Below, piece by piece: positions 10,373-10,790 of a DNA stretch of 14,883 bases. The DNA is from Rhodospirillales bacterium (GTDB taxonomy: Bacteria; Pseudomonadota; Alphaproteobacteria; Rhodospirillales; JAOUPW01): NCBI GenBank assembly GCA_029879665.1, contig JAOUPW010000006.1:1-14883 (forward strand), in the 5' to 3' direction. The position numbers were made by a program, and so were the translations under genes. The notes under the pieces are model-generated. The model saw only the letters and a program-made list of their open reading frames with translations. It did not search any database and was not told the origin of the DNA. Position 1 is the first letter of the stretch. Each line of letters begins with the position of its first letter.

Positions 10373-10402
10373 CTGGATTAATTGGTTGGAGATTCCTATA
10401 TT
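10373..10402 (+). promoter_or_regulatory. Candidate promoter of small RNA A
   Basis: CTGGAT (10373-10378), an 18-base spacer and TATATT (10397-10402). It closely matches the second unit's CTGGAC - 17 - TATATT, and that agreement between copies is the main support. Predicted start near 10410-10413, just at the first hairpin. Confidence 0.5.
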
Positions 10403-10409
10403 CTCTTTC

Positions 10410-10562
10410 ATCGATGTTGCGTTGCAACATCATAAGATTTCTCGATTTCGGGACCTCGTCCCGGAAAAAGGGCCCTTTCTCATGTTTGGGTCCTTGCGTC
10501 TCCCAGACGTGAAGCCTCCCTGTATAACTCGCCGGGCTCTCTTGAGAGTCCGGCGTTTTTTT
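10410..10562 (+). ncRNA. Structured small RNA A (suhB/mmgR-like 3' core), first of two tandem copies
   Basis: Predicted transcript of about 150 bases from the promoter above to the T-run. Hairpins in order: GATGTTGC/GCAACATC around GTT (10413-10431); CGGGAC/GTCCCG around CTC (10449-10463); GGGCCC/GGGTCC with one G-T pair (10470-10493); CGTCT/AGACG around CCC (10497-10509); then a single-stranded GCCTCCCTGTATAACT linker and a 12-bp terminator. The C-rich loop and linker are complementary to Shine-Dalgarno sequences, suggesting a trans-acting antisense RNA. The 3' core (10486-10562) recurs at 10718-10790. From memory it resembles the alphaproteobacterial suhB/mmgR family (Rfam RF00519), which has a CTCCCTGTTGAACT-type linker before its terminator; I could not run the covariance model. 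The 5' end is inferred. Confidence 0.65.
10530..10562 (+). terminator. Intrinsic terminator of small RNA A
   Basis: CGCCGGGCTCTC pairs with GAGAGTCCGGCG (one G-T pair) around a very short TT turn, realistically an 11-bp stem with a CTTG loop (10530-10555), followed by seven T (10556-10562). Confidence 0.9.
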
Positions 10563-10586
10563 ATCCACAGGTTTTTGGATTTTTTA

Positions 10587-10615
10587 CTGGACTTACATCA
10601 GTAAATGCTTATATT
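10587..10615 (+). promoter_or_regulatory. Candidate promoter of small RNA B
   Basis: CTGGAC (10587-10592), a 17-base spacer and TATATT (10610-10615). It lies only 24 bases after the terminator of RNA A, so B appears to be independently transcribed. Predicted start near 10622-10626. Confidence 0.55.
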
Positions 10616-10621
10616 AGAGAT

Positions 10622-10790
10622 AGATGATGTTGCCAACTTTGGTTCGTTGTTTCCTCCTCCCCCCCTTGGATCATCGAACGCGGCAACCAGGCCCGAGGCG
10701 GTCTATCCCTAGTCCCCTTGGACCCTTCGTCTCCTAGACGAAAGTCTCCCTGTTGAACTCGCCGGACTCATTTGAGTCCGGCGTTTTTTT
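10622..10790 (+). ncRNA. Structured small RNA B with CCTCCTCCC loop, second of two tandem copies
   Basis: Predicted transcript of about 165 bases. A long 5' arm is closed by GTTGCC/GGCAAC (10629-10634, 10682-10687) and GTTCG/CGAAC (10642-10646, 10675-10679), and would display the run CCTCCTCCCCCCC (10653-10665) in its loop. A small GTCC/GGAC hairpin (10712-10723) follows, then TTCGTCT/AGACGAA around CCT (10726-10742), the linker TCTCCCTGTTGAACT, and a 10-bp terminator. Three C-rich segments could pair with Shine-Dalgarno sequences, as in known alphaproteobacterial RNAs carrying CCUCCUCCC loops. Family assignment (suhB/mmgR-like) rests on remembered consensus and is tentative; the RNA gene itself is well supported by promoter, structure, terminator and the sister copy. 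Confidence 0.7.
10760..10790 (+). terminator. Intrinsic terminator of small RNA B
   Basis: Perfect 10-bp stem CGCCGGACTC/GAGTCCGGCG with ATTT loop (10760-10783) followed by seven T (10784-10790). It also shields the convergent EF-G-like gene, whose stop codon is 24 bases away. Confidence 0.92.

Follow-up and report, generated by a model that had tools for sequence, protein, structure and literature searches.

Two predicted sibling small RNA genes behind a VtlR/LsrB-type regulator in a Rhodospirillales bacterium, a likely counterpart of AbcR1/AbcR2

Rhizobia use the AbcR pair of small RNAs (sRNAs; Rfam family ar15) to silence nutrient-uptake genes, and AbcR acts as a regulator of symbiosis and virulence in Sinorhizobium, Agrobacterium and Brucella. 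Two anti-Shine-Dalgarno (anti-SD) motifs are reported to repress transporter and metabolic mRNAs (PMC5461406, PMC8844928), namely M1, CUCCCA, and M2, GUUCCC (PMC5461406). For A. tumefaciens, the gene order trxB-vtlR-abcR1-abcR2 and the VtlR box GCAT-N3-TG-N3-T have been described, with AbcR1 dependent on VtlR and AbcR2 not (PMC7486931). In S. meliloti, PabcR1 is described as carrying the VtlR box at -61 to -49, a generic T-N11-A motif is mentioned, and PabcR2 has an RpoH1-type promoter without the box; the same article states that the AbcR1 region is syntenic across alphaproteobacteria, and reports an effect of LsrB on AbcR in strain 2011 (PMC8844928), an effect that another study did not see in S. 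meliloti 1021. No title among the matches listed for open-access PMC dealt with such an sRNA in Rhodospirillales, and in the text available of an Azospirillum sRNA survey AbcR is named solely in the reference list (PMC7685610).

Here we analyse a 517-base gap (10298-10814) in the window, i.e. the whole stretch of 14,883 nucleotides under study. We read the gap, with a probability of about three in four, as holding a pair of predicted sibling sRNA genes, likely this lineage's counterpart of AbcR1/AbcR2, with split input and an anti-SD output (Table 1). It is bounded by the stop of a LysR-type gene at 10297 and by the end of an EF-G-like gene at 10815, so that the order reads trxB, LysR-type gene, gap with the two sRNA units and, on the opposite strand, the EF-G-like gene. 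The host genome (G000) is fragmented (2.97 Mb in 662 contigs, 82.7% complete), and the nearest named orthologs of the regulator (74% identity) belong to metagenome assemblies that carry the label 'Rhodospirillales bacterium'. An 84-aa ORF that runs across unit 1 (10350-10604) was set aside, as its start precedes the inferred transcription start.

Table 1. Features of the gap and its neighbouring genes, in window coordinates
Feature	Position	Strand	Basis and remarks
trxB (thioredoxin reductase), upstream neighbour	8405..9364	+	ORF; trxB match adjoining the regulator in 66/67 loci
LysR-type regulator, VtlR/LsrB ortholog, 299 aa	9398..10297	+	49-55% identity to Rhizobiales LysR genes, some adjoining ar15
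Palindrome ATGC-N7-GCAT, predicted operator of the regulator	10337..10351	+	48/56 related loci, 19/20 loci of other orders; spacing 7 only
Published VtlR/LsrB box GCAT-N3-TG-N3-T	10348..10360	+	-61 to -49 if +1 is 10409; exact box in 31/56 related loci
Unit 1 core promoter	10373..10402	+	CTGGAT 10373-10378, TATATT 10397-10402; CTGGAT-N18-TATATT, equally CTGGAT-N17-CTATAT
sRNA unit 1 (predicted; start inferred from -10)	10409..10562	+	R1 81.8 bits for 10490-10562; fold z -5.8
Unit 1 5' hairpin SL1 (GATGTTGC...GCAACATC)	10413..10431	+	Helix 1: both-sided changes at 6/10 pairs
Unit 1 hairpin SL2	10446..10466	+	Helix 2: both-sided changes at 3/7 pairs
Unit 1 hairpin SL4	10495..10511	+	Helix 3: 98.6% of cells paired; includes CTCCCA 10500-10505
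Unit 1 linker with CTCCCTG (10516-10522), predicted anti-SD seed	10512..10528	+	CTCCCTG in 29/29 fetched class R1 matches
Unit 1 terminator	10530..10562	+	Terminator scan; within R1 match
Unit 2 promoter	10587..10615	+	CTGGAC 10587-10592, TATATT 10610-10615; CTGGAC-N17-TATATT, equally CTGGAC-N16-TTATAT; without VtlR box or palindrome
sRNA unit 2 (predicted; start inferred)	10622..10790	+	R1 73.5 bits for 10721-10790; fold z -4.6
Unit 2 hairpin SL4 with CTCCTA (10731-10736)	10726..10742	+	R1 match, fold
Unit 2 linker with CTCCCTG (10746-10752)	10743..10758	+	Core pattern, R1 match
Unit 2 terminator	10760..10790	+	Terminator scan; within R1 match
EF-G (fusA)-like gene, convergent neighbour	10815..12869	-	ORF; same neighbour in some related loci, e.g. 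L002, L091, L133

Both units lie on the plus strand, and each has promoter-like hexamers, hairpins and a terminator that ends in exactly seven T, in agreement with the original prediction of two tandem units with promoters and terminators of their own. The two terminators rank at the top of the 24 terminator-like sites in the window. Because a promoter consensus scan of the window gave no excess over chance (6 found, 5.5 expected), the promoter calls rest on conservation: the elements keep a fixed spacing in related loci, and the inferred start of unit 1 falls 7 bases past the -10 element. Folding energies are -63.0 kcal/mol for unit 1 and -61.4 kcal/mol for unit 2, and for either unit equal stability was reached in 0 of 200 shuffles. 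In the minimum-energy fold of unit 1 (10469-10521), the 5' arm of SL3, AGGG, pairs with CCCU of the linker, possibly a self-masking state; the centroid fold keeps the linker unpaired.

The same prediction held that differences between the stems preserve base pairing and that the RNA structure is under selection, and this is borne out by a set of 21 full-length units (20 related ones plus unit 1; a selected set, with longer or less alignable units left out). Four helices, SL1, SL2, SL4 and the terminator, covary: 92.3% of cells are paired, compared with 81.5% in shuffles and 31-43% when the structure is slid, a comparison in which the unslid version is favoured by being derived from the same 21-unit alignment. 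Both-sided changes occur at 18 of 33 pairs, and none of 500 shuffles scored as high on any of five pairing measures. The 5' hairpins are common to related loci and covary there, single-copy loci included.

How far this arrangement extends was followed through the regulator, which has an ortholog in 53 of the 60 genomes of the relatives search (own genome counted). The resulting 67 loci comprise the window, one locus from each of 52 matching relatives and 14 from further contigs (L002-L015; regulator identity 57-74%, order membership not established); a second regulator match in G027 is not among them, and some stem from the same or near-identical genomes (e.g. L002/L093), so that the counts are of loci and not of independent lineages. 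The sole locus without a trxB match, L142, ends at its contig start. Downstream of the regulator, related loci share a recurring core, CGTCTCCCAGACGTGAAGCCTCCCTGTT-n-AACTYGCCGG followed by a terminator, from which we built a covariance model, R1 (43 cores from 39 loci, window excluded). These cores were chosen by a pattern that requires CTCCCTG, and the invariance of this heptamer among the 43 is by selection and no evidence. R1 matches both window units, upholding the predicted homology of the two 3' cores, and the proposed comparison of syntenic gaps in relatives finds the core conserved: with the window counted, R1 matches downstream of the regulator in 58/67 loci, or 57 of the 66 non-window loci, 39 of them being sources of model rows (no match at L006, L010, L015, L119, L120, L124, L126, L135 and L141). 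At least two R1 matches are present in 13/67 loci. Tandem copies and the long 5' domain had been put forward as distinctive of this locus, a view that does not hold given these 13 loci and the 5' hairpins common to related loci. In L112 and L116, approximately 590 bases separate the regulator from the first R1 unit, and a stronger second unit (89.5 and 90.7 bits, respectively) follows approximately 370 bases further on.

Across the class, R1 matched 200 of 385 genomes (E 0.001 or better), and the regulator is present in 226 of the 385. For the 101 genomes common to the best 150 of each list, we compared the positions of the two: in 81, of which 78 are outside the window's order, R1 follows the regulator on its own strand at a distance of 145-983 bases; in 11 it is on the regulator's strand 1.7-5.8 kb off, and in 9 it is distant from the regulator or on a different contig. 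When 29 class loci were fetched with their flanks (L152-L180, best matches), the regulator was found in 21, and all 29 carry CTCCCTG inside the R1 match. The host genome contains two further R1-like candidates, C30:1294-1360 (L145, 44.2 bits) and C653:4120-4183 (L146, 39.8 bits), both with a CTCCCTGTTAAACTC linker and no regulator match within the fetched flanks; L145 also has a hairpin loop with repeated CUCCC.

Between regulator and sRNA, the palindrome ATGC-N7-GCAT is present in 40/45 loci of the order and 8/11 of the L002-L015 set, in 3/11 loci without the core and in 19/20 class loci of other orders, compared with shuffle means per set of 0.4, 0.1, 0.1 and 0.1; spacers of 0-6 and 8-15 yielded at most 2 occurrences per set. 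The right half of the palindrome forms the start of the published VtlR box, which in the window lies where it is described for S. meliloti PabcR1 if transcription starts at 10409, and ATGC-N7-GCAT is a special case of T-N11-A. Before the first unit, the exact box occurs in 31/56 loci (strict core pattern), compared with a mean of 1.3 and a maximum of 5 over 200 rounds of dinucleotide shuffles, and a relaxed box in 39/56 (shuffles: mean 2.1, maximum 7). In other orders the published box is found in just 5/20 loci. Among 65 Rhizobiales loci, of which the first 450 bases were searched, none has the palindrome and 15 have the published box. Since the box does not hold in most other orders, where the overlapping palindrome does, and Rhizobiales are without the palindrome, the published box has the appearance of one half-site within a larger operator. 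In L178, the single class locus of the 20 without the palindrome, the published half-site box occurs twice instead. When 37 promoters are aligned on the relaxed box, they have in common the ATGC on the left, TGG at +26 and, at +49 to +54, a TATA element; the box columns are conserved by construction, and the ATGC, TGG and TATA columns are not.

The locus thus shares with AbcR1/AbcR2 of Rhizobiales the slot, trxB-vtlR/lsrB-sRNA-sRNA with tandem siblings on the same strand, as well as the VtlR box at -61 to -49 of the first promoter (in the window, counted from the inferred start), a second promoter without the box, a CUCCCA hairpin (unit 1) and a second anti-SD motif between hairpin and terminator; we call the arrangement AbcR1/AbcR2-like on the strength of its gene order, of an operator ahead of unit 1 and of a second promoter that has none. 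The CTCCCA of unit 1 SL4 equals the M1 hexamer, with most of it paired and only CCC exposed in the loop. Several features differ from AbcR. M2 is absent, with the linker CUCCCUGU/CUCCCUG in its place, unit 2 has CUCCUA where M1 would be expected, the window units possess additional covarying 5' hairpins, the operator is a full palindrome, of which Rhizobiales have the right half only, and the regulator is without cysteine.

In the same slot of Rhizobiales, ar15 (RF02345) scores at or above its cut-off in 3 of the 7 loci scanned out of 66 (L016, L021 and L027) and stays below it in L017, L019, L057 and L071; 12 further loci scanned beside these gave no Rfam family at its cut-off. In L027 (Mesorhizobium), the regulator is followed by three consecutive ar15 copies (3990-4670). 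In the window, no ar15 match was listed up to E 1 (cut-off 40 bits), where overlapping matches of one clan were collapsed and ar15 at unit 1 could only score below the suhB match. A class-wide ar15 search matched 0 genomes, as did its controls, and hence has no bearing on absence. The matches of R1 to Rhizobiales AbcR genes (33 of 66 loci given) do not exceed 16.8 bits and fall mostly on the terminator; they hint at common descent, and because they are weak and terminator-based we speak of a counterpart of AbcR and not of ar15 membership. The pairing of VtlR with AbcR is already known for Rhizobiales; neither R1 as an RNA form nor the full palindrome came up in the literature searched, the palindrome itself being no search subject.

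Scanned against Rfam, the two units matched no family at its cut-off. Nearest is SorX (RF02784, cut-off 46.6), at 37.3 bits (E 5e-6) for unit 1 and 35.4 bits (E 1.8e-5) for unit 2, i.e. 9-11 bits short, and SorY matches are weaker. The suhB/mmgR family (RF00519), which shares clan CL00108 with ar15 and had been proposed as the key relative and for a scan of the gap, matches weakly at unit 1 (23.1 bits, E 0.46, cut-off 41), with no match listed at unit 2; gene order and operator point to AbcR1/AbcR2 in its stead. The units could nevertheless be members of the SorX/SorY/suhB(mmgR) group that stand beside lysR by chance, the regulator having no control over them. They resemble SorX in the CUCCCUGUU linker and in terminator layout, and their linker is the motif described for RFM SmelC671, a single-stranded CUCCCUGU between variable hairpins (PMC3927594), the comparison being with the motif as described. 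The flanks of the two other R1 relatives in the host genome are without the regulator, and part of the R1 matches in the 200 class genomes may be due to such SorX-kind sRNAs, R1 having been run within the class only. We nonetheless consider a chance neighbourhood improbable: SorX, SorY and suhB all remain below their family cut-offs, and neither the adjacency to the regulator in 81/101 class genomes nor a palindrome of fixed spacing is expected from coincidence. Moreover, SorX is cut from the ompR-1 3' UTR in Rhodobacter, unlike the window units, which have another upstream gene and promoter elements of their own. SorX is also a precedent for 3' UTR-derived sRNAs, and the start of unit 1 lies 112 bases past the lysR stop on the same strand, as would suit a unit 1 that is chiefly a product of the lysR mRNA 3' UTR (or a read-through terminator) with unit 2 as a decaying duplicate. 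We give this still less credence, as operator and promoter elements between lysR and unit 1 are conserved and unit 2 retains its core, pairing and terminator, as well as a promoter type that recurs at four other second copies.

Unit 2 has neither VtlR box nor palindrome upstream. We compared its promoter with 413 records totalling 1.33 million bases, with overlapping copies counted, where at up to 6 substitutions the only matches besides the window copies were the second copies of L105 (28/32 positions common) and L133 (5 substitutions in fixed positions). The second copies of L131 and L132 have a looser CTGGAC-N17-TTATAT, spotted by eye and alike only in the hexamers and a few bases. Operator-free promoters of the unit 2 type thus precede the second copies of L105, L131, L132 and L133, while the palindrome precedes those of L104, L108, L109, L112, L116, L139 and L142, from which it appears that some duplications kept the input and others changed it; the second copy of L138 has neither palindrome nor unit 2-type promoter. 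An operator-free unit 2 promoter parallels PabcR2, which is without the box and of RpoH1 type, and the VtlR-independent AbcR2 of A. tumefaciens. It may also be an ordinary sigma-70 promoter without dedicated control, with the siblings differing only by activation through the regulator: CTGGAC-N16-TTATAT agrees about equally well with the alphaproteobacterial sigma-70 consensus, CTTGAC-N17-CTATAT, and with that of RpoH1, CTTGAA-N16-CCTATAT (consensus sequences from PMC8844928). A spacer common to the window and L105 goes beyond what a plain promoter needs; the likeness of L131 and L132 is limited, as noted, and we regard the ordinary promoter as a tentative alternative of considerable weight, if not the favoured one. 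The original suggestion of different regulation of the siblings probably stands.

The regulator itself has no cysteine, as is also the case in total for 51 of the 67 loci. One alignment column holds a cysteine in 54 of 66 Rhizobiales regulators and in 0 of the 67 here; its position makes it probably the conserved LsrB residue C144. As LsrB of Agrobacterium is redox-sensing and reported as a thiol switch (PMC11975290), the absence of cysteine from the window ortholog indicates that the signal it senses is probably a different one.

On the output side, CUCCCUG is complementary to the SD-like CAGGGAG. In the host genome, ACAGGGAG-N3-12-ATG occurs 13 times (one of these being the antisense of the C653 sRNA) versus 4 times for the reversed pattern, and at least three of the genes behind it encode transporter binding proteins. 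Over 60 genomes, own included, the seed-complementary AACAGGGAGG gave 103 rows (102 distinct) and the controls CAAAGGGAGG and AACAAGGAGG gave 48 and 64. Binding proteins, judged by eye from the N-termini of ORFs no shorter than 60 aa (14, 13 and 12 ORFs below this length were left aside), account for 24/88, 16/35 and 15/52 genes, respectively; CAAAGGGAGG still pairs with part of the seed and AACAAGGAGG less, and the share behind AACAAGGAGG equals the seed-complementary share. There is, then, no specific enrichment of binding-protein genes behind seed-complementary as compared with control SD sites in the 60 genomes, and target prediction was dropped as support for transporter targeting. Strong SD sites near ATG in these genomes, of any of the three variants, often belong to genes for periplasmic solute-binding proteins.

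By analogy with the rhizobial system, unit 1 is likely switched on by the neighbouring regulator and unit 2 likely is not. This VtlR/LsrB-type protein would activate unit 1 by binding to the palindrome, and unit 2 would be transcribed in different conditions from its own operator-free promoter. The CUCCCUG linker of both RNAs would cover ribosome-binding sites and silence mRNAs, a translation block suggested by its complementarity to the SD and by analogy with the anti-SD motifs of AbcR; the silenced mRNAs would probably be those of uptake and metabolic genes. The link between such a simple operator and its regulator is directly testable by gel shift.

We consider it an even bet that a VtlR-type regulator, the full ATGC-N7-GCAT and a CUCCCUG sRNA constitute an ancestral control module of Alphaproteobacteria, from which the AbcR system of Rhizobiales would have branched off and diverged, retaining the slot and one half of the operator. 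The sensor would then have changed but not the RNA output, and siblings with split input would have arisen in this order as they did in rhizobia. R1 represents a covarying RNA family that no Rfam model reaches at its cut-off, and loci with a single copy, with tandem copies under the same input and with tandem copies under split input provide a series for following the evolution of sibling sRNAs. Finally, should the module extend through the whole class, as synteny and palindrome suggest, it likely serves at base to keep nutrient uptake under housekeeping control in bacteria that live freely, and its host-related uses would have come later.
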